The translations under genes were made by a program, and so were the position numbers. A DNA stretch of 64,000 bases from Gemmobacter fulvus (GTDB lineage Bacteria > Pseudomonadota > Alphaproteobacteria > Rhodobacterales > Rhodobacteraceae): assembly GCF_018798885.1 (NCBI RefSeq), contig NZ_CP076362.1:62001-126000 (forward strand), written 5' to 3'. The first letter of the stretch is position 1; every line of letters begins with the position of its first letter. The notes below the pieces were generated by a model that saw only the letters and a list, made by a program, of their open reading frames with translations, was not told where the DNA came from and ran no database searches. Shown here in pieces: positions 32,403 to 61,545 of the stretch.

Positions 32403-33887
32403 ATGACGATGCAGGCGCGGATCGACGCAATCAGAAACCAGCCGGTTCCGGCACAGAGGCTGTTGATCAACGGCCAGTGGCAGGAGGGGCAGGACGCTGC
32501 AACCCCGGTGGTTTCGCCGATTGATGGCCGGCAGATCACCACGCTTGCCACAGGCAGCCCCGATGATCTGGATCGCGCGGTTGCGGCGGCACGCGCCGCC
32601 TATGTCGCGGGTCATTGGTCGCGGATGCCGCCACCTGCGCGCAAGAAGATCCTGCTGGCGATTGCAGACCGGCTGGAGGCCGAGGCGCTGGACATCGCGG
32701 TGCTGGGGGTGCGCGACAATGGCACCGAAATGGCCATGGCACTGAAGGCCGAACCTCTGGGGGCCGCCGCCACCTTTCGGTATTACGCCGAGGCGCTGGA
32801 CAAGATCTATGGCGAGATTGCCCCCACCGCGCCGGATGTTCTGGGCCTGATCCATCGTGGCCCGGTGGGTGTGGTCGGGGCCATCGTGCCGTGGAACATG
32901 CCGCTGATGATCGGCGCGTGGAAGCTGGCCCCCGCGCTGGCCATGGGCAATTCGGTGGTGCTGAAACCGGCCGAACTGGCCTCGCTGTCGCTGTTGCGGC
33001 TGGCGGCACTCTGCACCGACTGCGGCTTGCCGGACGGGGTGCTGAATGTCGTCACCGGCAAGGGGGCGGTGGTGGGCGCGGCCTTGGCGGGGCATATGGA
33101 TGTCGATGTGCTGGCCTTTACCGGGTCGAACGGCGTCGGGCGGCAACTGCTGCTCGCCTCGGCGCAATCGAACCTGAAACGGGTCTATCTGGAGCTGGGC
33201 GGCAAAAGCCCCAACATCATCTTTGCGGATGCGCCGGATCTGGAGCGCGCGGCCAGGGTGGCGGCGCAGGCGATCTTTCGCAATGCAGGTCAGGTTTGCG
33301 TCGCCGGTTCCCGCCTGCTGGTCGAGGCGTCGGTGCATGATGCGGTGGTGGAACAGGTTGCCCGCCATGCGGCGGCCCTGCGGGTCGGGGATCCGCTGGA
33401 TCTGACGACCGAGGTCGGTGCGGTGTGCTCAGAGACCCAGCTGCGTCAGAATCTGGCGCATGTCGCACAGGCCGAGGCGGAGGGCGCGCACAGGGTGACA
33501 GGCGGCGCGCGCATCCTGTCGGACACCGGCGGCACATATATGCAGCCAACGGTGTTTGACGGTGTGACCCCCGACATGACGCTGGCGCGCGAGGAGGTGT
33601 TTGGCCCGGTGCTGGCGGTGCTGCCCTTTGCGGATGAGGCCGAGGCGGTGCGGCTGGCCAATGACACGGTGTTCGGCCTCGCCTCGGCGGTCTGGACCGG
33701 CAATCTGTCGCGGGCGCATCGGATGGTCGGCGCGGTCGAGGCCGGGGTGGTGCATGTGAACACCTATGGCGGATCGGATCTGACAGTGCCGCTGGGCGGG
33801 CATCGCCAGTCGGGCAACGGGCATGACAAATCGCTTCATGCGCTCGACAAATATGTGAACCTCAAGACCGCCTGGATTCAGTTGTGA
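32403..33887 (+). CDS. Aldehyde dehydrogenase, PuuC-like (copy 1)
   Basis: A 494-residue NAD(P)-dependent aldehyde dehydrogenase. LELGGKSPN contains the general base Glu264, and GQVCVAGSR the nucleophile Cys299. GAIVPWNMPLMIGAWKLAPALAMGN is the coenzyme-binding region. The C terminus (SLHALDKYVNLKTAWIQL) is shared almost exactly with the second copy at 56235-57725. Similar enzymes oxidise gamma-glutamyl-aminobutyraldehyde or other amino-aldehydes, but the substrate here is open. The VOC, FAH and decarboxylase genes nearby suggest an aromatic-derived aldehyde. Confidence 0.87.
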   Translation: MTMQARIDAIRNQPVPAQRLLINGQWQEGQDAATPVVSPIDGRQITTLATGSPDDLDRAVAAARAAYVAGHWSRMPPPARKKILLAIADRLEAEALDIAVLGVRDNGTEMAMALKAEPLGAAATFRYYAEALDKIYGEIAPTAPDVLGLIHRGPVGVVGAIVPWNMPLMIGAWKLAPALAMGNSVVLKPAELASLSLLRLAALCTDCGLPDGVLNVVTGKGAVVGAALAGHMDVDVLAFTGSNGVGRQLLLASAQSNLKRVYLELGGKSPNIIFADAPDLERAARVAAQAIFRNAGQVCVAGSRLLVEASVHDAVVEQVARHAAALRVGDPLDLTTEVGAVCSETQLRQNLAHVAQAEAEGAHRVTGGARILSDTGGTYMQPTVFDGVTPDMTLAREEVFGPVLAVLPFADEAEAVRLANDTVFGLASAVWTGNLSRAHRMVGAVEAGVVHVNTYGGSDLTVPLGGHRQSGNGHDKSLHALDKYVNLKTAWIQL

Positions 33888-33990: not shown

Positions 33991-34578
33991 GTGAAACCCA
34001 GGGTAACCAAACTCGGCCATGTCGGTCTGACTGTCCGCGATATCGACCGGACCATCGACTTTTACAGCAAATATCTCGGGATGCGGCTGACCGAGAAATT
34101 CGAATATGAAGAGGTCCGTCTGGGCCACGGCGTTGCCGTGCAGGCCGGGGCCTTCATCCGCTGTGACACCACGCACCATGAATTGTCGATCTTCAAGATG
34201 CGCAAGGACATCCTGCCCGATGATGCACCGGGCGCGCCGCGTTATGGCTATGGCCTGCACCATGTCGCCTTCGAACTGGGCTCGCCCGAGGATCTGAAGG
34301 GGCTTTACACCCAGATGCGCGACGACGGGGTCGAGATCGTCAATTGCCGCAAGGGCGGGCCGGGCAATCAGCCGCGCTTTTACGCCCGCGATCCCGATGG
34401 CAACCTGCTGGAGTTCTATTGGGGCATTGATCAGGTGGGCTGGGACGGCGCCTCGCGCCCCTATGACCCGATCGAGGAGATCGACATCCTCAGCTTTGAT
34501 TTCGAGGCCTATGTCGAAACCCGCGAAATCAATGCGGCCGAGGCCCGCAAGACCATCCGTTCCGGGATCAATGGCTGA
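33991..34578 (+). CDS. VOC-family extradiol dioxygenase-like protein
   Basis: A 195-residue vicinal-oxygen-chelate protein with GTG start and GGAGGA upstream. Likely metal ligands are His in KLGHVGLTVRD, His in YGLHHVAFE and Glu in GNLLEFYWG, the 2-His-1-Glu set of catechol 2,3-dioxygenases. It may cleave a catechol-type ring or act on its product. Two GAACGGA repeats 21 bases apart lie just upstream. The substrate is not identifiable. Confidence 0.78.
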   Translation: MKPRVTKLGHVGLTVRDIDRTIDFYSKYLGMRLTEKFEYEEVRLGHGVAVQAGAFIRCDTTHHELSIFKMRKDILPDDAPGAPRYGYGLHHVAFELGSPEDLKGLYTQMRDDGVEIVNCRKGGPGNQPRFYARDPDGNLLEFYWGIDQVGWDGASRPYDPIEEIDILSFDFEAYVETREINAAEARKTIRSGING

Positions 34579-34615: not shown

Positions 34616-35329
34616 TCACGCCGAAAGCTTGGCCCCTATCGCCTTGGCGCAGGCCACCAGCGGCCCGGCCATGCTCATCAGGTTGGTGGCCCGGCTTTGC
34701 GGCACCAGAATCCCCACCGAGGCCTGCGCGATGCCATCGGCGCCGCAGACCGGCGCGGCCAGACCATGCACACCCAGCTGCAATTCATCGCGCGAATGGG
34801 CATAGCTCAGCGCCCGCACCTTCGCCAACCGTTGCAGCGCCGCCTGTCTTTCGGCATCGGGCAGCGGGGCCAATTGCCGTTCGATCACCTTGGCGGGCAG
34901 GAAGGCCAGCAGCGACCAGCCACTCGCCCCCCGGATCAACGGATGGCGCGAGCCGGGATTGTGGCGCACCACAACCACATGCGTCAGGTCCAGCGCCTGA
35001 TCCAGAACCACCGCCTCGTCGTCGGCCAGGCCATGCAGAACCACGGTTTCGCGCATGTCGCGGGCCAGCCGGGCCATTTCGGGTTTGGCAAAGCTCACGA
35101 TGCTGGGCTGGGCCTGCGCGGCCACGGCCATGGCGGCGGGGCCAAGCACATAACCGCCGGTGATCTTGATGACATAAAGCCGCCGCGCCAGGGTCGTCAG
35201 CAGGCGATGCGCCACAGTGCGGTTGATGTCGCACAGCCGCGCGCATTGCGTGGCCGAAACCGGGCCGTGCGCGGCCACGGATTCCAGCACGGTCAGCATC
35301 AGATCGCCGGTGGAGCTGATCTCGCTCAT
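34616..35329 (-). CDS. IclR-family regulator
   Basis: A 237-residue regulator with an N-terminal winged helix (SATQCARLCDINRTVAHRLLTTLA) and a C-terminal IclR effector domain (GVHGLAAPVCGADGIAQASVGILVP). ATG 35329 is preferred over a far-upstream start at 35404. It is divergent from the FAH gene, and direct repeats at 35398-35432 are its likely target. The effector is probably a small aromatic acid or cleavage product. Confidence 0.84.
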   Translation of the reverse strand: MSEISSTGDLMLTVLESVAAHGPVSATQCARLCDINRTVAHRLLTTLARRLYVIKITGGYVLGPAAMAVAAQAQPSIVSFAKPEMARLARDMRETVVLHGLADDEAVVLDQALDLTHVVVVRHNPGSRHPLIRGASGWSLLAFLPAKVIERQLAPLPDAERQAALQRLAKVRALSYAHSRDELQLGVHGLAAPVCGADGIAQASVGILVPQSRATNLMSMAGPLVACAKAIGAKLSA

Positions 35330-35397
35330 GTCGGCCCTTTCTGGCCAGAGGCCTGTCGCACGCCACCCCATGTTACCCGCCGCAGGGTTTGGGATGA

Positions 35398-35432
35398 AGT
35401 TCAAATATCGGCCATCACAGTTCGAAAATCGG
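35398..35432. promoter_or_regulatory. 14-bp direct repeats over FAH ribosome site, candidate IclR operator
   Basis: AGTTCAAATATCGG (35398-35411) and AGTTCGAAAATCGG (35419-35432) match at 12 of 14 positions and start 21 bases apart, two turns of DNA. The second reaches the Shine-Dalgarno GGAG of the next gene. Their place between divergent iclR and FAH genes suggests regulator binding that would block the FAH promoter or ribosome site. Confidence 0.55.
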
Positions 35433-35439
35433 AGAAACC

Positions 35440-36357
35440 ATGAAACTCGTCAGCTATCAATCTTTCGGTCAGGCCCGTTTCGGGGCCGTGATCGGCGCAG
35501 GTATCGTGGATATGGCGCGGGCAAGTGCCGCCCTTGCCGCCACGGATGCGGCGATCCGACCGCTGCCCGCAACGATCGAACCGTTTCTGGCGCAAACGGA
35601 TGTGCTGGATGCCTCGGCCCGTGCCGTGGTGACAGCGGCAGAGGCCGGGGCGCTGGATCTGTATTGCCTGCCGCTTGACGGAACCGTGCTGCTGCCGCCG
35701 GTGCCCCGCCCGACCAAGATCATCTGCGTGGCGCGCAACTATGCCGAACATGCGCGCGAGGCGGGGCTGCAAATCTCGGACATCCCGATCCTGTTCCCGC
35801 GCTTTGCCAATACCCAGATCGGGCAGGGGGCCCCCATCGTCGTGCCCGCCGTATCGCATCAACTGGATTGGGAGGGCGAGCTGGCGGTTGTGCTGGGGCG
35901 GGGCAGCCATGGCCGCCGCATCGGCAAGGCCGAGGCGATGGATCTGGTCTATGGCTACACGATCTTCAATGATGTGTCGGTGCGGGATTATCAGTTCCGC
36001 GTGACGCAATATACCGGCGGCAAGAATTTCCGCCATTCCGGCCCCTGCGGCCCCTATCTGGTGACCAAGGATGAAATTGCGGATCCGCACAAGGTGCAGA
36101 TCGTGACCCGCATCAATGGCGTGCTGAAACAATCGGCCAATACCGACACGATGATTTTCGATATTCCGACGATCCTGGAACATATCGCTGATTTCATTGA
36201 TCTGGAGGCGGGCGATCTGATCCCCACGGGCACGCCGGCCGGGGTCGGCTTCAAACGCAATCCGCCCGAGTTTCTGAAGGACGGCGATGTGATCGAGGTC
36301 GAGGTGACGGGCCTTGGCATCCTGCGCAACCCGGTGGTGAACGAGGCGGTGATCTGA
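35440..36357 (+). CDS. Fumarylacetoacetate hydrolase-family protein
   Basis: A 305-residue FAH-fold enzyme. DWEGELAVVLGR gives two metal-binding Glu, FNDVSVRDYQ the metal Asp, and GDLIPTGTPAGVGFKRNP the C-terminal family motif. FAH enzymes hydrolyse, decarboxylate or hydrate ring-cleavage products. It overlaps the next gene by one base (TGATG). It is similar in type to HpaG in the separate hpa operon but not a close copy. Confidence 0.86.
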   Translation: MKLVSYQSFGQARFGAVIGAGIVDMARASAALAATDAAIRPLPATIEPFLAQTDVLDASARAVVTAAEAGALDLYCLPLDGTVLLPPVPRPTKIICVARNYAEHAREAGLQISDIPILFPRFANTQIGQGAPIVVPAVSHQLDWEGELAVVLGRGSHGRRIGKAEAMDLVYGYTIFNDVSVRDYQFRVTQYTGGKNFRHSGPCGPYLVTKDEIADPHKVQIVTRINGVLKQSANTDTMIFDIPTILEHIADFIDLEAGDLIPTGTPAGVGFKRNPPEFLKDGDVIEVEVTGLGILRNPVVNEAVI

Positions 36358-36824: not shown

Positions 36825-38093
36825 TCAGGCGGTGCTGCGCAGGGGGCCGGTGGCCGCAGTCTTCGGCACGATGCCCTCTGCCACCCATGCGTCAAACACC
36901 GCGAGGGCCGCCTGCGCAAATGCCGGGGCGTTGATGTGGCAATGCAATTCCGTGCGGGACACATGCGGGCCCAGACTGCTGCGCAAGGCGGCGTAAAACC
37001 GGGCCAGATCGTCCGGCGCATGGGCCACCTCGCCCGGGCAATCCCAAGCCTCGACGCCATGCAGCGGCATCAACATATGCACCGGCCCTTTCGCCCCATT
37101 CAGCCGGACCGCGATTTCGCGCGCGACATAGGCGCGTTCTTCGGCATTGATCGTCAGGGAGGAGATCAGCTTGTTATGCACATGACGCGGGCGGTTCTGG
37201 AAGGATTCCGGCAGCGGGGCCCAGGTCGGCCAATCCACCAGATCGGCGGCGCCGGGTGCCACGATCTGCGGCACCCCGGCAGCGCCCGCACTTTCCAGCC
37301 GGGTCGCACCGCTGTTGATGATCGACCCGAACAGGCCATTGTTGAATTCCTGCAGGCACAGATCGAACACCATCACCAGTTGCCCGCTGCCAGCCAGGGC
37401 CTCGAACGCGCGCCCCCCCATGCCGGTCGAATGGAAAATCGCAACCTCATAGCCGCGCGCCTCCAGTTCCGGCTTCAGGATCTTCATGTAACGCAGGCAG
37501 GCATTGCCCAGAGAGGTGATGCCGATCAGCGGGCGTGCGGGCGATGGCGGGCGGGCCGCGCGGGCCGCCCCCAGCACCGCCCCCGCCGCCTGCGCCAGCG
37601 TGGAGATGCAGAGCGCATTCAGCCCGTAAAGCCCGCCCGCCCACAGGATCATCTGCACATCGCTGGGCAGGCGCTCTGGCGCGATGATGGCGGAAAAGGC
37701 GACGGTGGAGACGATGTATTTCGGCACGCCCAGCGGCAAGGTCAGCGCCACATCCAAGGCAAGATCCGTTCCCATCGAGCCGCCAAGCGCGATCATGCCA
37801 TCAAAGGCCTCCTGTTCATGCAGGCGCAGCGCCAGCGCACAGGCGCCACGGGCCATCAGCGCCATCGCGGTGTTTTCATCGCCCGAGGCGATGACCTCTG
37901 CGATGGACGCTCCGGCGGCCGCCGCCACGTCATGTTTGGAATGGCTGACCGGGTGCCGCGTGTCCCCCAGCACCGAGACATCAAGGCTGATGGCATGACC
38001 GCCCTGCTCGCGGATCACCGTTTCGATGAAGGCCAACTCATCGGCCTTGGTGTCATAGGTGCCGATGATCAGAATGGTTTTGGTCTGGGTCAT
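36825..38093 (-). CDS. UPF0261 / Tm-1-like ATP-binding protein (copy 1)
   Basis: A 422-residue protein whose start (ILIIGTYDTKADELAFIETVIREQGG) and motifs (GGSMGTDLAL; VSTVAFS; STGMGGRAFEAL) match UPF0261, the family of the N-terminal domain of tomato Tm-1. Tm-1 binds ATP, but the bacterial role is unknown. ATG 38093 follows GGCGGA. A second copy (54906-56138) also lies beside a PuuC-like ALDH module. It is divergent from a HAD gene. Confidence 0.83.
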   Translation of the reverse strand: MTQTKTILIIGTYDTKADELAFIETVIREQGGHAISLDVSVLGDTRHPVSHSKHDVAAAAGASIAEVIASGDENTAMALMARGACALALRLHEQEAFDGMIALGGSMGTDLALDVALTLPLGVPKYIVSTVAFSAIIAPERLPSDVQMILWAGGLYGLNALCISTLAQAAGAVLGAARAARPPSPARPLIGITSLGNACLRYMKILKPELEARGYEVAIFHSTGMGGRAFEALAGSGQLVMVFDLCLQEFNNGLFGSIINSGATRLESAGAAGVPQIVAPGAADLVDWPTWAPLPESFQNRPRHVHNKLISSLTINAEERAYVAREIAVRLNGAKGPVHMLMPLHGVEAWDCPGEVAHAPDDLARFYAALRSSLGPHVSRTELHCHINAPAFAQAALAVFDAWVAEGIVPKTAATGPLRSTA

Positions 38094-38351: not shown

Positions 38352-39008
38352 ATGACCACGCCCTGTTCTGCCCTTGTTCTTGATTTTGGCGGGGTGATCT
38401 CGCGCACCATGTTTGAAACGCATGACCTTACGGAACAGTCGCTGGGCCTGCCACCGGGGACGCTGGGCTGGCGCGGCCCCTTTGCCCTGCCCGGCGCGGA
38501 TCCGGTCTGGGAGGCGATGCAGGCCGGGCAGATCACCGAGCGCGACTACTGGATGCGCCGCATGGCCGAAACCGGCGCTTTGGTGGGCGAAGACTGGACG
38601 GAATTCCCGCAGTTCATTGCCCGCGCCCGGGGCAATGACCCCGCCGCTGTGATCCGGCCGGAGTTTCTGCATGCCATCGCCCGCGCCAAGGCGGGCGGCA
38701 AACGGCTGGCGATCCTGTCGAACGAACTGGACCTGTTCTACGGGGCGGGTTTCCGCGACCGGCTGCCGTTCATGGCCGATTTCGAGCTGATCGTGGACGC
38801 CACCTATACCGGTATCCTGAAGCCGGACCACCGCGCCTATGGCTTTGTCACCGACGGGCTGGGGCTGGCGGCGGCGGATTGTGTGTTTGTGGATGACCAG
38901 ATGAAAAACATCCGGGGCGGGCAGGCGGCAGGCATGACATGCGTGGCGTTTGATGTGACCGATCCGGCCCGCAGCTATGCCGAGGCGCTGGCTCTTCTGG
39001 GTGTGTGA
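38352..39008 (+). CDS. HAD-family hydrolase
   Basis: A 218-residue haloacid-dehalogenase-fold protein. Motif I is LDFGGVI, where the usual second Asp is Gly, as in epoxide-hydrolase-like HAD proteins. Motif II is ILSN, motif III the Lys in GILKPDHRAYG, and motif IV VFVDDQMKN. The changed motif I makes ordinary phosphatase activity doubtful. It is divergent from UPF0261 and followed by a LuxR regulator. The substrate is unknown. Confidence 0.83.
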   Translation: MTTPCSALVLDFGGVISRTMFETHDLTEQSLGLPPGTLGWRGPFALPGADPVWEAMQAGQITERDYWMRRMAETGALVGEDWTEFPQFIARARGNDPAAVIRPEFLHAIARAKAGGKRLAILSNELDLFYGAGFRDRLPFMADFELIVDATYTGILKPDHRAYGFVTDGLGLAAADCVFVDDQMKNIRGGQAAGMTCVAFDVTDPARSYAEALALLGV

Positions 39009-40000: not shown

Positions 40001-40768
40001 TCACCCGCGATACTGGCGGGCCAGCTGCCGCAGGGCGGTGGCAAACAGCGTCACATCGATGCCGACACCGACGAAATTCGCCCCTGCCGCCGTGCAGTCG
40101 GCGATGAAGCCCGCATCGGTGCTCAGCACCCCGGCGCTGCGTCCGGCGGCGCGGATCCGGCGCAGCGCGTCGAGCACCGCCGCCTTCACCTCGGGGTGGC
40201 CGGGGTTGCCCAGATGCCGCAGATCCGCGGCCAGATCCGACGGGCCGATGAACACGCCATCCACCCCCGGCACCGCCAGAATATCGTCCAGCGCCGCGAG
40301 GCCCGCCCGGCTTTCCACCTGAAGCAGCAGGCAGATCTGCGCATTGGCGCTGGTCAGGTAATCCGGGATTGCCGCAAAGCGCGAGGCGCGGGCCAGGGCA
40401 GAGCCGACACCGCGGATGCCTTCGGGTGCATAGCGGGTGGCGCGCAGAATCGCTTCGGCCTGCGCCCCGGTTTCCACCATCGGCACCAGCAGCGTCTGCG
40501 CGCCGATATCCAGCGCCTGTTTGATCTTGGCCGGATCATCATCGGGCAGGCGCAGGATCGGCACCGGGCCTTTGCCCTCGATCACCGCCAGTTGGGCCGA
40601 CAGCGAGCGGATGTCGTTGGGCGCATGTTCGCCATCGATCAGCAGCCAGTCGAAATCGGCACTGGCGGCAATTTCGGCGGCATAGGCATCGGCCAGACCG
40701 AGCCAGATGCCATGCAGCACGTCGCCTTTTGCAAGGCGGTGTTTCAGCGTGTTCACGGGGGCAGGCAT
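40001..40768 (-). CDS. hpaI: 4-hydroxy-2-oxoheptanedioate aldolase
   Basis: A 255-residue class II aldolase of the HpaI family. DWLLIDGEHAPND, LLQVESRAGL and VDGVFIGPSDLAADLRHLG carry the base His, metal Glu and metal Asp. It splits 4-hydroxy-2-oxoheptane-1,7-dioate to pyruvate and succinate semialdehyde, the last step of the homoprotocatechuate pathway. ATG 40768 is preferred over GTG 40774. It is the last gene of hpaFEDGHI. Confidence 0.92.
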   Translation of the reverse strand: MPAPVNTLKHRLAKGDVLHGIWLGLADAYAAEIAASADFDWLLIDGEHAPNDIRSLSAQLAVIEGKGPVPILRLPDDDPAKIKQALDIGAQTLLVPMVETGAQAEAILRATRYAPEGIRGVGSALARASRFAAIPDYLTSANAQICLLLQVESRAGLAALDDILAVPGVDGVFIGPSDLAADLRHLGNPGHPEVKAAVLDALRRIRAAGRSAGVLSTDAGFIADCTAAGANFVGVGIDVTLFATALRQLARQYRG

Positions 40769-40775
40769 GGGCACC

Positions 40776-41576
40776 TCAGAAGCTCAGGGAAACATGGCCG
40801 AAGCGGCCGAAATCGGCGGCAAACCGGCTGCCGGGCGGGGCCTCGATGGGGCGGATGAAGCTGCCCGACAGCAGGATGTCACCCGCCGCGATGCCCTGAC
40901 CATACCGCGCCAGCCGATGTACCAGCCACAGGATGCCGGTGACCGGATCGTTCAGCACGCCCGCGCCCAGCCCGGTTTCCTCCACCACGCCATCGCGGCT
41001 GACAATCGCCCCGATCCAGCGCAGATCGAAGGTCTCGACGGCATGGCGCTGCGGCCCCAGCACGATCCCGGCATTGGCGGCATTGTCGCTGACGGTATCA
41101 AAGATCACCCGCGCGCGGCCTGTGGCCGGATCGGCGCGCAGGATGCGGGTATCGAGGATCTCAAGGCTGGGGGCCACGTAATCGGTGGCGGCCAGCACCT
41201 CGTCGCGCGTGACCTGCGCCCCCGCAAGCGGTGCCTTCATCACAAAGGCAATCTCGGCCTCGATCCGCGGCTGGATGAACCGGCCCGGCGGGATGGAGGC
41301 GCCATCGGCAAACAGCATGTCGGCCAACAGCACCCCGGAATCCGGTGTGGTGATGTTCAGCGCAGTTTGCATGGCGCGCGAGGTCAGGCCGATCTTCCAG
41401 CCGATCACCCGCCCGCCCGCCGCCTGTTTGCGCGCAACAAGGGCTGCCTGCACCGCATAGGCATCGTCCAGCGTGATCGCGGGATAGAGCAGCGACAGCA
41501 GCCCGCATTGGCGGCCCGTCAGCTCGGCCTGCAACAGCATTCCGGCAGCGGCGTCGATCTGATCGGGGGTCATCAT
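40776..41576 (-). CDS. hpaH: 2-oxo-hept-4-ene-1,7-dioate hydratase
   Basis: A 266-residue hydratase of the HpaH/MhpD family, which adds water to 2-oxohept-4-ene-1,7-dioate before the aldolase step. GWKIGLTSRAMQTALNI, RFIQPRIEAEIAFVM (metal-binding Glu) and LVHRLARYGQGIAAGDILLSGSF are characteristic. Its ATG overlaps the hpaG stop by four bases. Confidence 0.92.
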   Translation of the reverse strand: MMTPDQIDAAAGMLLQAELTGRQCGLLSLLYPAITLDDAYAVQAALVARKQAAGGRVIGWKIGLTSRAMQTALNITTPDSGVLLADMLFADGASIPPGRFIQPRIEAEIAFVMKAPLAGAQVTRDEVLAATDYVAPSLEILDTRILRADPATGRARVIFDTVSDNAANAGIVLGPQRHAVETFDLRWIGAIVSRDGVVEETGLGAGVLNDPVTGILWLVHRLARYGQGIAAGDILLSGSFIRPIEAPPGSRFAADFGRFGHVSLSF

Positions 41577-42427
41577 TCGTCGGCCACCCCATTGCGCAGC
41601 AGGCCGATGCCCGGCACCTCTACCTCGACCACATCACCGGGGCAGAGCCAGACCGGCGGATCAAACCGCGCGCCTGCGCCGGTGGGCGTGCCGGTCACGA
41701 TGATGTCACCCGGCACCAGCGTGGTGAAGGTCGAGATATAGGCGATCTGCCGCGCCACCGGAAACAGCATCCGCCCGGTGCGGTCGCTTTGCCGCACTGC
41801 GCCATTCACCCGTGTTGTCAGTTCCACATCCACGATCTGCGCCGGATCGGTGAAGGGCACCAGCCACGGCCCGATCGCGCCCGAGGCATCCCAGTTCTTG
41901 CCCTGCGTCACGTTGAATTTCGCATGGCGCACCCAATCGCGGATCGTGCCTTCGTTGCACAGGGTCAGCCCCGCGATATGCGACAGCGCCTGATCTTCAG
42001 CGATGCGGCGGCCGCCCCTGCCGATCACCACCGCAATCTCGCCCTCGTAATCCAGTTGCGGGCTTTCGGGCGGGCGGATCAGCGGCGCGCTATGGCCGGT
42101 AAAGCTGCGGGCAAAGCGCGGGAACAGGCTCATGTTCGGGGGCGCGTCCTGCCCGTCCTTGTATTCGGCATTGCGGTCAGGAAAGTTGACGCCGACGCAG
42201 ATGATCTTTTCGGGGTCGGGCACCGGAATGTCATGGCGATAACTGCCATCGGCATGGGTGATGGCGCGGCCCTCTGCGGCGGCCAGAACCTGCCCGATGG
42301 CCTGCGCCTCGATCACGTTGCGCAGGGTTTTCCACTGCGGAAACGCATCCGACAGCGCGATGACGCCGCCCGGCGCGGTGACGCCCCAATGCTGGCTGCC
42401 GGTGGCGGTAAAGGTGACAAGGTTCAT
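41573..42427 (-). CDS. hpaG: FAH-family OHED isomerase/decarboxylase
   Basis: A 284-residue FAH-fold enzyme. LDYEGEIAVVIGR and GDIIVTGTPTGAGARFDPP are the family motifs. In the hpa operon this position encodes the bifunctional 5-oxopent-3-ene-1,2,5-tricarboxylate decarboxylase/isomerase. Enteric HpaG is often a tandem duplicate, but here only one FAH domain is present. ATG 42427 follows AGGGG. Confidence 0.85.
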   Translation of the reverse strand: MNLVTFTATGSQHWGVTAPGGVIALSDAFPQWKTLRNVIEAQAIGQVLAAAEGRAITHADGSYRHDIPVPDPEKIICVGVNFPDRNAEYKDGQDAPPNMSLFPRFARSFTGHSAPLIRPPESPQLDYEGEIAVVIGRGGRRIAEDQALSHIAGLTLCNEGTIRDWVRHAKFNVTQGKNWDASGAIGPWLVPFTDPAQIVDVELTTRVNGAVRQSDRTGRMLFPVARQIAYISTFTTLVPGDIIVTGTPTGAGARFDPPVWLCPGDVVEVEVPGIGLLRNGVADE

Positions 42428-42485
42428 GCGGTGCCCCTGGGGCAAAATGGTTTCAGATCATCATCACGCCGATGGCGCAGCAGGG

Positions 42486-43466
42486 TCACGGCGCGATGAT
42501 GGGTTGCGCTGTCAGATCGCTGTCGACCAGCGCCGCCCCGTCAAAGGCAGACCCCAGTTCAAACCAGCTGCGCGGTGCGGGGGCACCCCAGAGCGTCTGG
42601 CGTTGCGGGTCTTTCAGATCCCATTTGATCGGTTCCAGATCCGGGTCGCAGGTCTGGTAATCGGAGCAATAGATCTCGGTCCGGTGGCCGTCGCGGTCGC
42701 GGATATACAGGAAGAAGGCGTTGGAAATGCCATGCCGCCCCGGCCCGCGTTCGATATTGTCAAGATAACCCGAGGTTGCCATCAGATCCATCAGGTCGAT
42801 GATGTTCAGCGGCGTCGGCACCCAGAAGGCGGTGTGGTGCAGGCGCGGCCCGGTGCCATTGGTAAAGGCGATGTCATGCACGCCGCCCTTCCGGTGCATC
42901 CAGGCCGCCCAGATGCGCCCGCTGTCCTCGTCGGCGGTATATTCGGTCACGCGAAAGCCCATCTCGCCATAGAACGCGACGGCGGCGTCGACATTGGCCG
43001 AGAACAGGTTGAAATGGTCGATGCGCAGCGGTTTCACGCCACGATAGAGCTTGTATTGCTGGTGGATCGGCGGCAGCCGGTCCATTGCCGCATAGAACTC
43101 CAGCGGCACGCCCCAGGGATCGCGCGTCGCCAGAACCCGGCCCATGAAGGGGCGGCTGATCCAGGCGGTGGGCAGGCCCCTGGCGCGGAACCAGTGTTCG
43201 GCGCGGTCCAGATCCTCCTCGGACCAGACCTTGAACCCCAGCACCCCGACCGAGCCTTCCCCGGATTTGCGCAGGATCATGCAATGGTGGCCGCGTTCCT
43301 CCATCGCGCGCAGATAGATGCTGTCGGCATCCTCATGCGTCACTTGCAGGCCCAGCGTGTCGACATAATAGCCCCGGCTCCAGGCCAGATCGGTCACGCG
43401 CAGTTCGACATGCGACAGGCGGACGATGTTGAAGGGCGGGGTCAGGGTTGGTGCGGGAAGGGGCAT
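42486..43466 (-). CDS. hpaD: 3,4-Dihydroxyphenylacetate 2,3-dioxygenase
   Basis: A 326-residue two-domain VOC extradiol dioxygenase that opens the homoprotocatechuate ring. The active metal site is in the second domain: His151 (RIDHFNLF), His210 or 211 (RLHHTAFW) and Glu264 (GHRTEIYC), close to the 155/214/267 set known from Brevibacterium and Arthrobacter enzymes. This is the type I enzyme, not the LigB-type HpaD of E. coli. A 58-base gap separates it from hpaE. Confidence 0.91.
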   Translation of the reverse strand: MPLPAPTLTPPFNIVRLSHVELRVTDLAWSRGYYVDTLGLQVTHEDADSIYLRAMEERGHHCMILRKSGEGSVGVLGFKVWSEEDLDRAEHWFRARGLPTAWISRPFMGRVLATRDPWGVPLEFYAAMDRLPPIHQQYKLYRGVKPLRIDHFNLFSANVDAAVAFYGEMGFRVTEYTADEDSGRIWAAWMHRKGGVHDIAFTNGTGPRLHHTAFWVPTPLNIIDLMDLMATSGYLDNIERGPGRHGISNAFFLYIRDRDGHRTEIYCSDYQTCDPDLEPIKWDLKDPQRQTLWGAPAPRSWFELGSAFDGAALVDSDLTAQPIIAP

Positions 43467-43524: not shown

Positions 43525-45038
<1,514 letters not shown>

Positions 45039-49381: not shown

Positions 49382-49400
49382 ATACCATCCTTTCCGAAAG

Positions 49401-49421
49401 GGGTGCCCCCACGGGGCACCC
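49401..49421 (-). terminator. Hairpin after second binding-protein gene
   Basis: GGGTGCCCC and GGGGCACCC (9-bp stem, three-base loop) lie nine bases after the substrate-binding protein stop and before livH. It is the third such hairpin in this window between a binding protein and its permease gene. Confidence 0.6.
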
Positions 49422-49429
49422 GGCATGGG

Positions 49430-52321: not shown

Positions 52322-52331
52322 GGGCGGCTCC

Positions 52332-53738: not shown

Positions 53739-53902
53739 GGCATCCTCCCTCGAAATTCCCTGCGCTCAGGCTGCGGCACAATGCCGCGCAATTCTTGGAC
53801 TGGCGCGACGGCAAAGACGGACTCGGGCGACAGGAGGCGATATACTTAACCTGTTCAATTTTGCATTTGCAGCAAGGCCGCGCGCTGTCGCATGATCTTC
53901 AC

Positions 53903-54905: not shown

Positions 54906-56138
54906 CTACGGGCGCGGCAGCGTGCCGTCGGTGATCCAGCCATCCACCACGGCCAGCGCCGCATCGGCAAAGCCCGGATCATTGATGTGGCAGTCCAGAT
55001 CGCGCAGCACCACCTGCGGCGGGCAGGCCTGGCGCAGTTCGGCCAGAAACTCGGCCAGCGCTGCCGGATCGCGCAGCGGCCCGCCGGGCCTGTCCCATTC
55101 ATGCGCGCCCTGCTGCGGCAACAGCAGCGTCACCGGGCCGCGTGCCTGCGCCAGCCGTTCGGCCAGACTGCGGGCCACCGCGCGGCGTTCGTCGGGGCGC
55201 AGCACGACGGACGAAAGGATGCGGTTATGGGCGTGGAAGGTGCTGTCGGCAAAGCGGGCGGGGCGCGGGTGCCAGCCGACCAGATCCACCAGATCATGAC
55301 AGCCGATCGACACGATCTGCGGGATGCCGCGCCGCCCGGCGGCGGTCAGACGATCCGGGCCTGCGCTGATCGCCGAGCCGAACAGGTGGTTGCCCACCTC
55401 TTGCGGCGCGAAATCCATCACGGCGGCAAAGGCACCTTCGGCGGCCAGCGCCTCGAAGGCGCGCCCGCCCATGCCGGTGGCGTGAAAAACCGCCACCTCG
55501 AAGCCCCGCGCCTCCAGCGCCGGTTTCAGCGGCACCATATACCGCAGCACCGTCTTGCCAAAGCTGGTCATGCCGATCAGCGGCCGGTCGCGGCGGGGCG
55601 GCTCTGCCGCGCGGGCCGCGCCCAGCACCGCCCCTGCCGCCTGTGACAGCGCCGCCTTGCAGATCGAGTTCAGCCCATAGAGCCCGCCGGCCCAGAGGAT
55701 CATCTGAATATCGGCGGGCAGGCGTTCGGGTGGCAGCATCGGTGAAAAGCTGACGGTGGAGACGACATATTTCGGCACGCCCAGTGGCAGGGCGGCACAG
55801 AGATCGAGCGCGAGATCGGTGCCCATGGTGCCGCCCAGCACGATCAGCCCGTCAATCCGCCCTTCGGCATGGAGCCCCGCGGCCAGCCGCGCCGCGCCGA
55901 GGGCCATGATCTGCATCGCGGTGTTTTCATCCTGCGCCGCGATGGCCGCCGCAATGGAGGAGCCTGCGGCGGCGGCCACGGCGTGTTTGTCGATGTCGAC
56001 CGGCTGCCCCGGATCGCCCAGCACCGAGACATCCATCGCCAGCACCTCGCCGCCCTGGGCGCGGATCACATCGCGGATATACCCGAGTTCGTCTGTCTTG
56101 GTGTCCCAGGTGCCTGCGACAAGGATGCGGTTGCCCAT
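54906..56138 (-). CDS. UPF0261 / Tm-1-like ATP-binding protein (copy 2)
   Basis: A 410-residue paralogue of the protein at 36825-38093, sharing the start pattern ILVAGTWDTKTDELGYIRDV, GGTMGTDLAL, ERLPADIQMILWAGGLYGLN and GMGGRAFEAL. The ATG at 56138 has AGGAG before it. It is the third gene of a minus-strand group after an APC permease and a PuuC-like ALDH. The function is unknown. No Tm-1 C-terminal TIM-barrel-like partner was seen in the window. Confidence 0.83.
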   Translation of the reverse strand: MGNRILVAGTWDTKTDELGYIRDVIRAQGGEVLAMDVSVLGDPGQPVDIDKHAVAAAAGSSIAAAIAAQDENTAMQIMALGAARLAAGLHAEGRIDGLIVLGGTMGTDLALDLCAALPLGVPKYVVSTVSFSPMLPPERLPADIQMILWAGGLYGLNSICKAALSQAAGAVLGAARAAEPPRRDRPLIGMTSFGKTVLRYMVPLKPALEARGFEVAVFHATGMGGRAFEALAAEGAFAAVMDFAPQEVGNHLFGSAISAGPDRLTAAGRRGIPQIVSIGCHDLVDLVGWHPRPARFADSTFHAHNRILSSVVLRPDERRAVARSLAERLAQARGPVTLLLPQQGAHEWDRPGGPLRDPAALAEFLAELRQACPPQVVLRDLDCHINDPGFADAALAVVDGWITDGTLPRP

Positions 56139-56234: not shown

Positions 56235-57725
56235 TCAGAGCTGGATCCAGGCGGTTTTCAGATCGGTGTATTTGTCGAGCGCGTGCAGCGATTTGTCATG
56301 GCCATTGCCGGATTGCTTGACGCCGCCGAGCGGCACGGTGCCATCGGCGCCGCCATAGGTGTTCACATGCACCACCCCGGCGCGCAGGCCGTGCACCATG
56401 CGATGCGCGCGCGACAGCGCGCCGGTCCAGACGCCGGCGGCGAGGCCGAATTCGGTGGCATTGGCGAGGTGCAGCGCCTCGGCCTCGGTGGTGAAGGGGG
56501 TGACGGCGAGCACCGGGCCGAACACCTCTTGCCGGAACAGCCGGTGATGCGGGGCGACGCCGGTGACGATGGTGGGCTGCATATACCAGCCGCCGCTGTC
56601 TTGCCGGGTCTGTGCGCCGCCGGTGACGATGGTGCCGCCGTCGCGGATCGCCTCGGCGATGAAACCGAGGTTGCCCTGCAACTGCGCGGGGGAATTGATC
56701 GCGCCGATCTGGGTTGCCAGATCGAGCGGATTGCCGAGGGTCATGGCTTTGGCCGCGCGGGCGACCTCGGCTACAACCTCATCATGGATGCTGGCCTCGA
56801 CCAGCAGGCGCGATCCGGCGACGCAGACCTGGCCCGCGTTGCGGAAGATGGCGGTGGCGGCGGTTTTTGCGGCCAGTGCCAGATCGGGGGCATCGGCGAA
56901 GATTATGTTGGGGGATTTGCCGCCGAGTTCGAGATAAACGCGTTTCAGGTTGGACTGGGCGGAATATTGCAAAAGCCGCCGCCCGGTGGCGCCCGAGCCG
57001 GTGAACACCAGCACATCCACGTCATGCGACAGGGCCAGCGCCTCGCCCGTCACGCGGCCCGGCCCTGTCACCACGTTGAACACGCCCGGGGGCACGCCTG
57101 CCTCCAGCGCCAGTTCGGCCAGCCGCAGCAGCGACAGCGAGGCGGTTTCGGCGGGTTTCAGCACCACCGAATTGCCCATGGCAAGGGCGGGCGCGATCTT
57201 CCACGCGCCGATCATCAGCGGGAAGTTCCACGGCACGATGGCCGCGACCACGCCGACCGGCGCGCGGTGGATCAGGCCCAGCACCGTGTCGGCGGTGGGG
57301 GCGATCTCGCCATAGACCTTGTCCAGCGCCTCGGCGTAATAGCGGAAGGTGGCGGCGGCGCTGCCGGGTTCGGCCTTCAGCGCCATGGAAATCTCGGTGC
57401 CATTGTCGCGCACGCCCAGCACGGCGAGGTCGAGCGCATGGGCGTCGATCAGATCGGCCAGCCGGTGCAGCACCGCCTTGCGCGCGGCGGGGGCGAGCCC
57501 GGACCAGCGGCCATCGTCAAAGGCGGCGCGGGCGCTGGCGGTGGCGCGGGTGACATCCTCGGCGCTGGCGCTGGCGAGGTGGGTCAGGGTGCTGCCGTCG
57601 ATCGGGGAGAGCACCGGAGTCGGCGTGTCCTGCCCGGCGACCCATTGGCCATTGATCAGCAGGCGCGCCTCGGGGATCGGGCGAGTGGCGAGGGCGGTGA
57701 TGTCGGATTGCGTCGGGCGTGCCAT
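56235..57725 (-). CDS. Aldehyde dehydrogenase, PuuC-like (copy 2)
   Basis: A 496-residue aldehyde dehydrogenase, closely similar along its length to the one at 32403-33887, sharing MALKAEP, FRYYAEALDK(I/V)YGEIAPTA, LELGGKSPNIIFADAPDL (base Glu), GQVCVAGSRLLVEAS (nucleophile Cys) and the C terminus. PuuC-like enzymes oxidise amino-aldehydes from polyamine breakdown. The APC permease and class III aminotransferase beside it support an amine-derived aldehyde here. Confidence 0.88.
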   Translation of the reverse strand: MARPTQSDITALATRPIPEARLLINGQWVAGQDTPTPVLSPIDGSTLTHLASASAEDVTRATASARAAFDDGRWSGLAPAARKAVLHRLADLIDAHALDLAVLGVRDNGTEISMALKAEPGSAAATFRYYAEALDKVYGEIAPTADTVLGLIHRAPVGVVAAIVPWNFPLMIGAWKIAPALAMGNSVVLKPAETASLSLLRLAELALEAGVPPGVFNVVTGPGRVTGEALALSHDVDVLVFTGSGATGRRLLQYSAQSNLKRVYLELGGKSPNIIFADAPDLALAAKTAATAIFRNAGQVCVAGSRLLVEASIHDEVVAEVARAAKAMTLGNPLDLATQIGAINSPAQLQGNLGFIAEAIRDGGTIVTGGAQTRQDSGGWYMQPTIVTGVAPHHRLFRQEVFGPVLAVTPFTTEAEALHLANATEFGLAAGVWTGALSRAHRMVHGLRAGVVHVNTYGGADGTVPLGGVKQSGNGHDKSLHALDKYTDLKTAWIQL

Positions 57726-57776: not shown

Positions 57777-59210
57777 TTAGCGGTGCTGGCCGAGTTTGCC
57801 GAAGCGGATGGAATCGCGGGTCTTGAGGTTCCAGGCGAGCGCCAGCCCGATCAGCCCGGCCAGCGGCACCAGCGAAGGCAGCGCCACGCCGAGCCAGCCT
57901 TCGGCCCCGGTCAGCGCGCCGAACTGAACAAAGATCACCCCGAACAGCAGCAGCATGGCAAGGCCCGAGATCAGCGGCAGCACCTTGGTGGCCATCACGG
58001 ATTCGCCCTGCGCGCCTTTCCGGACGAAAAAGCCGATCACCGCGAAGGAGACCACGCCCATCAGGCCCAGAATACCCAGGGTGCCAAGCTGTGTCAGCCA
58101 GGTGAAGAGTTGCAGCACCGGATCCATGCCCTTGGCAGCGAAGAGGCCGATGACCAGAATGGCGATCAGGGTCTGGATTACCGAGCCGACATGCGGGCTT
58201 TGGAAATCGGCATGGGTACGGCCCACGCGATCCGGCAGCAGGCCCTCGCGCCCGGCGACGTATTTGTAGCGCGCAACGCCATTGTGAAAGGCCAGAACGG
58301 CGGCAAACAGCGACGAGATGAACAGGAAGCCCATGATCGTCGGCACCGGCCCGCCGACATAGCGCGCCGCCAGATCGAACAGGAAGGTGGTCGGGTCGCT
58401 CAGGCCTTGCAGCGTCGGCAGCAGCTTGTCGACGCCCGCGCCATTCGCCATCAGCCAGGCGGTGATCATGTAGAACACACCGATCAGCAGCACCGAGCCA
58501 TAGGTGGCCTTGGGGATCGAACGCTGCGGGTCGCGCGCTTCTTCGGAATAGATCGTTGTTGCCTCGAAGCCGATGAAGGCGGCAAAGCAGAACAGGATGC
58601 CGATCGAGGGCACGCCCGAAAACACCTGCGAGGGTTCAAACGGGGCCATCGACAAGCCACTGTCACCCCCGGAAAACAGGATCGCGCCGTCGATGATCAG
58701 CACGATCAGATATTCCAGCGCCACCAGAACCACAAGAATCCTGGCCGACAGATCGACCTGCCGGTAGCCCAGCACTGCCGTGGCGGCGATGGCGATATAG
58801 GACCAGACCCACCAGGGCAGATCGAGGCCGAGGGTGGCGAAGGTTGCCGAGGAGGCCGCGCCCAGCAGGCCGAGGATGCCGATCTGCATGCAGTTGTAGG
58901 ACAGGATCGCGACCAGTGCTGCCGCACCGCCGAAATGGCCGCCGAGGCCCTGTGCGGCAAAGGCATAAAACGCCCCGGCATTGCGCACATGGCGCGACAT
59001 GGCGACATAGCCCACCGCGAACAGCAGCAGCATGACCGAGACGATGGCAAAGCCGCCCGCCACGCCCACGCCATTGCCCAAGAGCATCGCCAGCGGCACG
59101 CCGCCCGCCACGGCGGTCAGCGGTGCGGCGGCCGAGACGACCAGAAAGGTGATCGCAGCCGCGCCAAGGGTATTGGGTCTGAGCTGGTTGGTTTGGGTGC
59201 CCTCAGCCAT
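57777..59210 (-). CDS. APC-family amino acid/amine permease
   Basis: A 477-residue inner-membrane transporter with about 12 spans. The N-terminal LGAAAITFLVVSAAAPLTAVAGGVPLA and the FIGFEATTIYSEEARDPQRSIPKATYGSVL motif are typical of the APC superfamily. It probably imports the amine or amino acid degraded by the ALDH and aminotransferase nearby. It is divergent from an IclR gene across a region with dyads. Confidence 0.86.
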   Translation of the reverse strand: MAEGTQTNQLRPNTLGAAAITFLVVSAAAPLTAVAGGVPLAMLLGNGVGVAGGFAIVSVMLLLFAVGYVAMSRHVRNAGAFYAFAAQGLGGHFGGAAALVAILSYNCMQIGILGLLGAASSATFATLGLDLPWWVWSYIAIAATAVLGYRQVDLSARILVVLVALEYLIVLIIDGAILFSGGDSGLSMAPFEPSQVFSGVPSIGILFCFAAFIGFEATTIYSEEARDPQRSIPKATYGSVLLIGVFYMITAWLMANGAGVDKLLPTLQGLSDPTTFLFDLAARYVGGPVPTIMGFLFISSLFAAVLAFHNGVARYKYVAGREGLLPDRVGRTHADFQSPHVGSVIQTLIAILVIGLFAAKGMDPVLQLFTWLTQLGTLGILGLMGVVSFAVIGFFVRKGAQGESVMATKVLPLISGLAMLLLFGVIFVQFGALTGAEGWLGVALPSLVPLAGLIGLALAWNLKTRDSIRFGKLGQHR

Positions 59211-59383: not shown

Positions 59384-60196
59384 ATGGGCACGACATCGAA
59401 AGCACTTGCTTTGCTTGAGTTTTTTACGCGTCAGCGGCCCAGTATCGGCCTGTCTGATCTGGCGCGGCTGTCGGGGGCCAACAAGGCGACCTGCTTTCGG
59501 CTGATGTCGGAACTGGTGGAGCATGGCATCGCGGAACAGCTGCCGACGACCAAGGAATACCGAATCGGCCCGGCTGTGCTGCGGCTGGCGGCGCTGCGCG
59601 AGGCCAGTGTGCCGACGCGTGAAGCGGCCCTGCCGGTGCTGCAAGCGCTGGCGGTGGCGACGGGCGAGACCGCGCATATGTCGCATCTGGTGGCCGGGCA
59701 GCTGGTGACGCTGGCCTTTGCTTACAGCTCGTCGCACGGGATGCGGGTGATGATGGAAGATGCCGATGTGCTGCCCTTCCATGCCACGTCCTCGGGCTTT
59801 GCGACGCTGGCCTGGATGGGTGAGGCAGAGGTCGCGCGAATCCTGGCCGCCCCCTTGCCCGCGCGCACCACGGCCACTCCGGCCACGCCCGAGGCGGTGC
59901 GTGACCGGCTGGCGGCCACGCGCCGCGACGGATTGGCCCAGACCGCCGCCACCTTCGAGGCGGATGTGAACAGCTTTGCCGTGCCGCTGTTTGATGCGCA
60001 GGGCATTGTGCAGGGTGCGATGGCCGTGGCCGCGCCGGCGCTGCGCATGACAGACGTGGCGCGTGACCAGATCCCCCGGCAGCTGATTGCGGCGGCGGTG
60101 CAGGTCATGGCGCTCTGGGGCGGGCAGATCCCGCCGGACCTCGCGGCGCTGTGGCGCGGCAGAACAGACCCAACAGGACAAAAGGTGCAGGAATGA
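59384..60196 (+). CDS. IclR-family regulator of amine module
   Basis: A 270-residue regulator with an N-terminal winged helix (IGLSDLARLSGANKATCFRLMSELVEHGI) and the IclR effector domain (LPFHATSSGFATLAWM; SFAVPLFDAQGIVQGAMAVAAPAL). It heads an operon with the aminotransferase (four-base overlap) and is divergent from the permease. It probably controls both arms of the module. Confidence 0.85.
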   Translation: MGTTSKALALLEFFTRQRPSIGLSDLARLSGANKATCFRLMSELVEHGIAEQLPTTKEYRIGPAVLRLAALREASVPTREAALPVLQALAVATGETAHMSHLVAGQLVTLAFAYSSSHGMRVMMEDADVLPFHATSSGFATLAWMGEAEVARILAAPLPARTTATPATPEAVRDRLAATRRDGLAQTAATFEADVNSFAVPLFDAQGIVQGAMAVAAPALRMTDVARDQIPRQLIAAAVQVMALWGGQIPPDLAALWRGRTDPTGQKVQE

Positions 60197-61545
60197 AGGA
60201 CGAAAACTATCTGAAGGCCAATAACGCGCGCAGCCTGTGGCACCCGATGACGGCGCCGTCGGACAGTCTGAACAACCCGCCCACCATCATCACCGGCGCG
60301 TCTGGCACCCGCATCCGCGATGTCGACGGGCATGAGGTGGTCGATGGCGTCGGCGGGCTGTGGAATGTGAACCTTGGCTATTCCTGCCAGCCGGTGAAGG
60401 ACGCGATTGCCGCGCAGCTGGACCGACTGCCCTATTATTCGATCTTTCGCGGCACCTCGAACGACTGCGTGATCGAACTGGCCGAAGAGCTGCGCGCCTT
60501 TTTCGAACCCGATGGGCTGACGCGGGCGTTCTTCACCTCGGGCGGGTCGGATTCGGTGGAAACGGCGCTGCGGCTGGCGCGGCAATATCACAAGATCCGC
60601 GGCGAGGCCGGGCGCACCAAATTCCTCAGCCTGAAGAAGGGCTATCACGGCACGCATATTGGTGGCGCTTCGGTCAATGGCAATGCCAATTTCCGCACGC
60701 AATACGAGCCGTTGTTGCCGGGCTGTTTTCACATTCCCGCCCCCTATACCTATCGCAACCCGTTCAACGAATCTGACCCGGAAAGGCTGGCGCAGCTGTG
60801 CCTGCAGGCGCTGGAGGACGAGATCGCGTTTCAGGGCGCGGGCACCATTGCCGCCTTCATCATGGAGCCGGTTCTGGGCGCGGGCGGCGTGATTGTGCCG
60901 CATCCGTCCTTCATGCCGGGGGTGGCGGCGCTTTGCCGCAAGAACGGCATCCTGCTGATCGCGGATGAGGTGATCACCGCCTTTGGCCGCACCGGGGCGT
61001 GGAGCGGCAGCCGTCTCTGGGGGGTGCAGCCCGACTTCATGTGCACCGCCAAGGCGATCACCAATGGGTATTTCCCGTTCGGCGCGGTGATGATTGCCGA
61101 AAGCGTGGCGCAGGTGTTCGAGACGGACGAAAGCGGCCGCGCGGCGATTGGGCATGGGTATACCTATTCCGGGCATCCGGTGGGCGCGGCGGCGGCGCTG
61201 GCCTGTCTGGCCGAAACCAAGCGCCTGAACGTGATCGATAATGCCACCGCGCGCGGCGCGCAGCTGTTCGACGGGCTGATGCGGCTGAAAGACAAGCATG
61301 ACGTGATCGGGGATGTGCGTGGCGGCAAGGGCCTGATGCTGGCGGTCGAGCTGGTGGGCGACCGGGCCAGCAAATCCGCCCCGCCCAAGGCACAGCCGGG
61401 GCAGGTGCAGGCGGTGGCCTATCAGCAGGGCGCGATGGTGCGGGTCTCTGGCCCCAATGTCATCCTGTCGCCGCCGCTGGTGCTGACCGCCGAGGATGCC
61501 ACGGTGATCCTCTCGGCGCTCGATGCGGGCTTTGCTGCGCTGTGA
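60193..61545 (+). CDS. Class III PLP-dependent aminotransferase
   Basis: A 450-residue omega-transaminase-type enzyme. FTSGGSDSVETALRLARQY and LLIADEVITAFGRTGAW are family motifs, and Lys287 in CTAKAITNGYFPFGA should bind PLP. It moves an amino group from an amine or omega-amino acid to a keto acid, giving the aldehyde for the PuuC-like ALDH. ATG 60193 overlaps the iclR stop. Specificity is open. Confidence 0.87.
   Translation: MKDENYLKANNARSLWHPMTAPSDSLNNPPTIITGASGTRIRDVDGHEVVDGVGGLWNVNLGYSCQPVKDAIAAQLDRLPYYSIFRGTSNDCVIELAEELRAFFEPDGLTRAFFTSGGSDSVETALRLARQYHKIRGEAGRTKFLSLKKGYHGTHIGGASVNGNANFRTQYEPLLPGCFHIPAPYTYRNPFNESDPERLAQLCLQALEDEIAFQGAGTIAAFIMEPVLGAGGVIVPHPSFMPGVAALCRKNGILLIADEVITAFGRTGAWSGSRLWGVQPDFMCTAKAITNGYFPFGAVMIAESVAQVFETDESGRAAIGHGYTYSGHPVGAAAALACLAETKRLNVIDNATARGAQLFDGLMRLKDKHDVIGDVRGGKGLMLAVELVGDRASKSAPPKAQPGQVQAVAYQQGAMVRVSGPNVILSPPLVLTAEDATVILSALDAGFAAL

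Follow-up and report, generated by a model that had tools for sequence, protein, structure and literature searches.

Aromatic catabolism that is initiated by phosphorylation has been described for the hydroxyphenylethanone pathway of Rhodococcus, in which, according to extracts of the published accounts (PMC9618137, PMC12167813), a kinase (HpeHI), a biotin carboxylase and a NagD-like phosphatase take part, and for Novosphingobium aromaticivorans, where the pathway begins with MarK, 'a single-component kinase', in the words of an extract of PMC13101465. The other systems to which the present locus can be compared are the homoprotocatechuate (hpa) meta-cleavage pathway, the Puu putrescine pathway and the pairs formed by bacterial UPF0261 proteins and a TIM-barrel partner, TBST (PF09370). 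UPF0261, the domain found in Tm-1, a protein that makes tomato resistant to a virus, is listed in Pfam as an uncharacterised family, and the NCBIfam subfamily NF002676 carries the name 'hypothetical protein'.

The window, the whole stretch of 64,000 nucleotides of Gemmobacter fulvus analysed here, contains both of the UPF0261 genes of this genome. Copy 1 (36825..38093, minus strand), a member of the NF002676 subfamily and a predicted phenol kinase, and copy 2 (54906..56138, minus strand, with a possible open reading frame start at a GTG at 56192) both score above the curated Pfam thresholds of PF06792 and PF23189, and reach 568 and 607 bits, respectively, against NF002676, the cut-off of which is 556 bits. 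At 57% identity the copies are clearly paralogous, as the initial annotation had stated, and the coordinates that it gave for the UPF0261 and aldehyde dehydrogenase copies are correct. For comparison, 209 relatives of the UPF0261 pair were collected in a contig scan and the best 80, those nearest to the window, were kept (26 of these stretches fall short of 17 kb and the other 54 reach or exceed that length); their neighbour content was determined by gene calling, clustering, profile searches of representatives and directed tblastn at chosen identity thresholds. The window copies share the two-domain UPF0261 fold with plant Tm-1 and the bacterial UPF0261–TBST pairs, but they differ from these pairs in that TBST/PEP_hydrolase is absent both from their own genome, where PF09370 has no match anywhere, and from the subfamily 4 (NF002676) loci (0 of the best 80 of 209). 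The earlier observation that no TIM-barrel partner of Tm-1 lies nearby thus holds genome-wide. A Tm-1/TBST system was rejected for subfamily 4 because PF09370 was found neither in the genome nor in these 80 loci; a PF09370 partner gene is not a requirement of the Pfam UPF0261 family. In 31 stretches fetched around mostly distant UPF0261 genes (L113–L143, part of all matches), a cluster of TBST-type genes, one member of which was profiled, is present in 11 loci.

Each UPF0261 gene is accompanied by an aldehyde dehydrogenase (ALDH) gene, at 32403..33887 on the plus strand (copy 1, PF00171) and at 56235..57725 on the minus strand (copy 2), the latter upstream of UPF0261 copy 2 and co-directional with it. 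The ALDH copies are 70% identical, and among the 33 ALDH matches in the genome (self included) the best non-self match of copy 1 is copy 2, the next reaching 46%, in keeping with the earlier description of the two as very similar. A likeness to the Puu pathway exists in that PuuC is the best-matching NCBIfam family of both ALDHs and in that glutamine-synthetase-like and amidotransferase genes lie near the L139 and Ruegeria TM1040 loci; the ALDHs nevertheless score 523 and 546 bits, far under the PuuC cut-off (NF007352, 850 bits). Equivalence with PuuC is ruled out by these scores, and the label 'PuuC-like' given previously is apt for the best match but loose.

Both clusters also contain an IclR regulator, that of cluster 1 (34616..35404, minus strand) recognized by a profile match and that of cluster 2 (59384..60196, plus strand) being of the type that recurs with UPF0261. 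The two regulators are 27% identical, by which IclR is ruled out as a homologous third member, and among the best 80 of 209 related loci the cluster 2 type occurs in 53 at ≥33% identity, versus one for the cluster 1 type at the chosen threshold. The 'trio' that had been read as occurring twice therefore consists of a repeated UPF0261 and ALDH together with an IclR protein of varying origin: an IclR gene is indeed present in both clusters, but the two do not form a homologous pair.

The remaining genes of the two clusters differ in how widely they recur. Cluster 1 encodes a small VOC/glyoxalase-fold protein of 195 amino acids (33991..34578, plus strand) and an FAA-hydrolase family protein (35440..36357, plus strand), each of which recurs at ≥50% identity in one of the best 80 of 209 related loci, namely the closest relative L003 (87% and 84%, respectively). 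Divergent from UPF0261 copy 1 lies an HAD-IA hydrolase gene (38352..39008, plus strand; PF00702, with TIGR01509 over its cut-off), a candidate phosphatase with an epoxide hydrolase N-domain as its nearest PDB entry. This HAD is present in 21 of the best 80 of 209 related loci and in 19 of 248 genomes of the family, 16 of which carry UPF0261 (p = 8e-6), an enrichment that is far from general; as a universal phosphatase partner it is ruled out by its presence in only 16 of 88 UPF0261-positive genomes. In cluster 2, an APC-family permease (57777..59210, minus strand; PF00324) is shared with 14 of the best 80 of 209 loci, a class III aminotransferase (60193..61545, plus strand; NF005683, 720 bits against a cut-off of 575), with the omega transaminase 5lh9 as its nearest PDB entry, with 50 of them, and the MBL-fold hydrolase that follows it (61542..62396, plus strand; PF12706) with four. 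The region adjoining UPF0261 copy 2 (50720–54898) contains a choline-dehydrogenase-like GMC oxidoreductase, a third ALDH and an AraC regulator.

The distribution of these genes was examined in 248 genomes of the family, tallied as 248 genera, using E-value limits of 1e-130 (UPF0261), 1e-175 (ALDH), 1e-195 (HpaE) and 1e-60 (pcaH), with the first few candidates per genome scored in the UPF0261, ALDH and HpaE searches. UPF0261 subfamily 4 is present in 88 genomes, ALDH in 77, HpaE in 88 and pcaH in 153. With p-values that ignore the relatedness between genera, UPF0261 is associated with ALDH (72 genomes with both, 16 and five with one only and 155 with neither; odds ratio 140, p = 4e-40) and with HpaE (77/11/11/149; odds ratio 95, p = 2e-39), whereas the control pair of UPF0261 and pcaH gives 54/34/99/61 (odds ratio 0.98, p = 1.0). 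ALDH and HpaE are distributed as 69/8/19/152; all three genes occur together in 65 of the 248 genomes and none of them in 148, and under the limits applied HpaE is missing from 11 of the 88 UPF0261-positive genomes and ALDH from 16. As to adjacency, ALDH lies within 10 kb of 63 of 91 UPF0261 genes and within 100 bp of 47, in 46 of these 47 on the same strand, and HpaE lies within 20 kb of UPF0261 in 18 genomes. The UPF0261–ALDH pairing is real, much above chance and far wider than this replicon, as the initial annotation had proposed to check by co-occurrence (72 of 88 genomes; 47 of 91 genes within 100 bp); its suggestion of a possible undescribed catabolic system is partly supported, namely for the UPF0261–ALDH link but not for a homologous IclR partner. 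The same figures bear on the idea that adjacent genes lacking any functional link were simply copied together within this replicon. Both UPF0261 and ALDH pairs do lie inside a span of ∼25 kb, but co-occurrence and adjacency hold across genera, and in the tree UPF0261 copy 1 groups with L003 and copy 2 with Roseobacter sequences (bootstrap unsettled). With the UPF0261 copies in different subclades, the two clusters do not give the impression of having been duplicated locally, and hitch-hiking of this kind is extremely improbable.

Between the two UPF0261/ALDH pairs sits an operon for homoprotocatechuate meta-cleavage, encoded on the minus strand, which had previously been missed, although enzymes of the ring-cleavage type had been noted. 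It comprises an HpaI-like aldolase (40001..40774; 338 bits, under the TIGR02311 cut-off of 369), the hydratase HpaH (40776..41576; TIGR02312, 366 bits, cut-off 351.5), an FAA-hydrolase family protein in the position of HpaG (41573..42445; PF01557), the homoprotocatechuate 2,3-dioxygenase HpaD (42486..43466; TIGR02295, 411 bits, cut-off 321) and the dehydrogenase HpaE (43525..45000; TIGR02299, 763 bits, cut-off 638). Thus, HpaD, HpaE and HpaH exceed curated cut-offs as in the known hpa pathway, from which the locus differs in the sub-threshold HpaI-like protein and in the lack of HpaB. Between this operon and cluster 2 (46072–50680), Liv/Urt-type ABC transporter genes and a substrate-binding protein are found, all under the NCBIfam cut-offs.

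HpaB, the 4-hydroxyphenylacetate hydroxylase of the peripheral step, has no match in the G. fulvus genome and is absent from 68 of the 76 other genomes that carry both UPF0261 and HpaE (eight have it; with the own genome included, 69 of 77 are without), a count that leaves out 11 genomes with UPF0261 and no HpaE and 11 with HpaE and no UPF0261. Because HpaB is missing from this genome and from most of the others, the catechol probably comes from elsewhere, and homoprotocatechuate is probably formed from a precursor that is already a catechol, for instance dopamine or noradrenaline, or with the help of a hydroxylase of another family. The ring of dopamine and noradrenaline is already a catechol. 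The distribution suggests catechol-type substrates for the genomes that carry UPF0261 and HpaE but no HpaB.

The related loci connect UPF0261 with amines, a feature that the initial annotation had left out. At least one amine-handling gene, counted as an aminotransferase, phospholyase, OYE-type, demethylase-type, glutamine-synthetase-like or decarboxylase gene, is present in 68 of the best 80 of 209 loci and in 49 of the 54 stretches of at least 17 kb. Within the same best 80 of 209, an ALDH occurs in 43 loci, the tripartite transporter component TctA in 38, a histamine-dehydrogenase-like OYE protein in 21, a dimethylglycine-dehydrogenase-like protein in nine, a PLP decarboxylase in three (its best NCBIfam match being diaminobutyrate decarboxylase, far under the cut-off) and a glutamine-synthetase-like protein in two, whereas an APH-type kinase and a phospholyase-like PLP enzyme are found in 22 each, in exactly the same 22 loci. 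For one representative each, the nearest PDB entries are 5g4i and 6tor for the phospholyase, 3k30 (histamine dehydrogenase) for the OYE type and 5l46 (dimethylglycine dehydrogenase) for the demethylase type. In Ruegeria pomeroyi DSS-3 the ALDH, a class III PLP enzyme, a 'homoserine kinase' and UPF0261 are encoded consecutively, and in several Mesorhizobium loci a single stretch contains ALDH, permease, IclR, UPF0261, HAD, aminotransferase, phospholyase, kinase and hpa genes. The neighbours of UPF0261 in L139 are hpa genes, HpaB, a flavin reductase, a P450, a class I glutamine amidotransferase, a glutamine-synthetase-like protein and an HpaR-like regulator that remains under its cut-off; L138, from the same genus, shows the same run as far as the flavin reductase, as judged by clustering. 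The set of glutamine-synthetase-like, glutamine-amidotransferase and P450 genes recurs beside the module in L138, L139 and L153, and is possibly a γ-glutamyl-amine route.

These neighbours also accommodate a different substrate class, in which the module would act on non-aromatic amines or amino alcohols, of an ethanolamine- or polyamine-like kind, with UPF0261 adding the phosphate to the side chain or to some other group, while the link to hpa would reflect nothing more than catabolic genes clustering in the genome. The phospholyase-like enzyme resembles ethanolamine-phosphate phospho-lyase, the kinase is of the APH type with weak homoserine-kinase matches, PuuC is the top-scoring NCBIfam family for the ALDHs, and HpaD, HpaE or HpaH lies inside only 15 of the best 80 of 209 fetched stretches, ten of them from Mesorhizobium. 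Against this stand the genome-wide odds ratio of HpaE, which is matched by no such association of the aromatic control pcaH, the hpa genes that adjoin the module in Mesorhizobium, in two further Rhizobiales, in two Rhodobacterales and in one Thiothrix MAG, and the phenolic ligand with which a UPF0261 homologue has been solved, so that we regard non-aromatic substrates as unlikely. The assumption of an aromatic ring rests on the hpa link and on this ligand, that of PDB entry 9mpy.

The structural comparison brought in this homologue, which had been overlooked before. An AlphaFold model of UPF0261 copy 2, built from 70 relatives, has a mean pLDDT of 95, and in a Foldseek search its best PDB match is 9mpy (E = 3.6e-32), followed by tomato Tm-1 (3wrw, 1.5e-29), whose N-terminal region shows the same fold. 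According to its title, 9mpy is Saro_1862, a UPF0261 domain protein of N. aromaticivorans, with bound acetovanillone. Copy 2 and Saro_1862 are 34% identical, and subfamily 4 and the Saro_1862 group form separate clades with full support in a tree whose bootstrap did not settle completely (correlation 0.985) and which has some long branches; the window copies fall into different parts of subfamily 4 in this tree. Because of this low identity and the clade of its own, the substrate of subfamily 4 may differ from that of Saro_1862. Across the 70 UPF0261 proteins aligned, of 108 gathered, 15 residues are invariant, and 32 positions are invariant across 12 diverse proteins (subfamily 4, the Saro_1862 group and others), including Asp15, Lys17, Lys126, Asn160, His222, Asp245 and Arg266 (numbered by the aligned fragment of copy 2); as far as sequence conservation can indicate, these look like an active site. 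A further 44 positions are specific to subfamily 4, among which Trp152, Tyr157, Tyr203 and Trp292 are candidates for the substrate pocket.

The genomic position of the relatives of Saro_1862 points in the same direction. No close orthologue was found in 289 genomes of the class, four of which gave matches of 34–36% identity, but six plasmid records encode a UPF0261 protein more than 50% identical to Saro_1862. In all three of the six that were examined (Sphingomonas bisphenolicum AO1, Pseudomonas putida YC-AE1 and Novosphingobium humi, the last unannotated and read by tblastn), UPF0261 comes first and is followed by three biotin-carboxylase subunits and an HAD hydrolase. Because these relatives take the kinase slot of Hpe-type operons, we infer that UPF0261 is the kinase in question and that MarK would be Saro_1862; the kinase activity of UPF0261 may already be in print in the MarK paper (Hall et al., 2025). 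By analogy, UPF0261 of the window is probably an ATP-dependent kinase that phosphorylates an aromatic compound. The previous suggestion of an ATP-dependent handling of an aldehyde- or acid-linked intermediate was close to this reading, but phosphorylation of a phenol appears to be better supported by 9mpy and the relatives in the kinase slot. The likeness to the Hpe/Acv/MarK pathway consists in the UPF0261 protein with the same fold and in the runs of UPF0261, carboxylase and HAD headed by relatives of Saro_1862. In contrast, the partners in the window are an aminotransferase, ALDHs and hpa genes; a NagD-like HAD phosphatase is not recognisable, the HAD of the window being an HAD-IA protein that does not significantly match its counterpart in the carboxylase operon of S. 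bisphenolicum AO1, and a three-subunit biotin carboxylase is found neither among the 20 window proteins around the copies nor among the ten frequent neighbour families of the relatives. Since there is no carboxylase among the neighbours examined, the Hpe chemistry itself would not occur in the window system.

UPF0261 could instead catalyse nothing itself and serve the ALDH/aminotransferase operon as an accessory protein or as a regulator that binds nucleotides, in the manner in which plant Tm-1 works by binding a viral protein. Tm-1 is a direct inhibitor of viral RNA replication according to an extract of PMC5028733, and PDB titles list it in helicase complexes; furthermore, the accessory genes vary between loci while UPF0261 is constant, and no phosphatase partner is present throughout. 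A regulator is nonetheless a rather improbable reading, given invariant residues that look like an active site, a homologue solved with acetovanillone and relatives that hold the kinase slot in three operons.

The mostly distant UPF0261 genes show further contexts. In ten of the 33 UPF0261 open frames of L113–L143 (those of L135, L131, L136, L119, L127, L130, L122, L132, L134 and L128), UPF0261 shares a single open frame with an ABC-transporter ATPase domain, as seen from profile evidence for L135 and BLAST similarity for the other nine; such fusions would fit an import-coupled phosphorylation. In L118, UPF0261 and TBST-type genes have an aldolase-II/SDR fusion and an FGGY kinase as neighbours, an arrangement known from deoxysugar catabolism, and shared clusters indicate the same set in L116. 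Because of these sugar-type neighbours, UPF0261 substrates are probably not phenols alone. In L129, and by shared clusters in L133, UPF0261 is found with a dikinase-like protein (PPDK_N and PEP-utilizer), an M24 peptidase, a GFO/IDH oxidoreductase and a fumarate-reductase-like flavoprotein.

Taken as a kinase, UPF0261 may be placed in a pathway as follows, in which the phosphorylation, the exact substrate, the sequence of steps, what the neighbouring enzymes catalyse and the dephosphorylation are all predicted. The two loci would be two versions of a single catabolic module for an aromatic ethylamine, probably with a catechol or phenol ring. Its side chain would be converted to the aldehyde by the class III transaminase, or in relatives by the APH-type kinase with the PLP phospholyase, by an amine dehydrogenase or by a demethylase; the dedicated ALDH would oxidize the aldehyde to the arylacetic acid, which would enter the homoprotocatechuate meta-cleavage pathway encoded between the two copies. 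UPF0261, as a single-chain ATP-dependent enzyme, would phosphorylate the phenolic compound before the acid stage, trapping or masking it, and a phosphatase, which may be the HAD in some members, would later strip the phosphate. In our judgement, such a route from aromatic amine through aldehyde and acid into the hpa pathway, with UPF0261 as an ATP-dependent phenol kinase, has an even chance of being correct. More tentatively, and with the odds against it, the route may be phosphate-masked throughout: UPF0261 would phosphorylate a ring hydroxyl of the catechol- or phenol-ethylamine, the partner aminotransferase or phospholyase together with the ALDH would then oxidize the side chain by way of the otherwise reactive arylacetaldehyde, and the phosphate would be removed before meta-cleavage. 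The UPF0261 family as a whole would be one of small-molecule kinases that are often coupled to transport, as the fusions with ABC ATPases suggest. Overall, what is seen resembles a variant of aromatic catabolism that starts with a phosphorylation and is tied to aromatic amines and hpa.

In the open-licence literature no paper was found that joins a Tm-1-like protein with aldehyde dehydrogenase and aminotransferase or that links phospho-lyase, octopamine catabolism and aldehyde dehydrogenase, and nothing was found on 'Tm-1-like ATP-binding' or on Saro_1862 by name; a search for octopamine with homoprotocatechuate returned none, and one for tyramine with homoprotocatechuate nothing relevant by titles.

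In conclusion, the links of UPF0261 to hpa, ALDH and amine genes, together with a homologue that binds acetovanillone, make the function of this family concretely and cheaply testable. If the proposed route is correct, it would explain a gene found in 88 of 248 sampled genomes of the bacterial family, would suggest a source of homoprotocatechuate for bacteria without HpaB and would add a family of small-molecule kinases.
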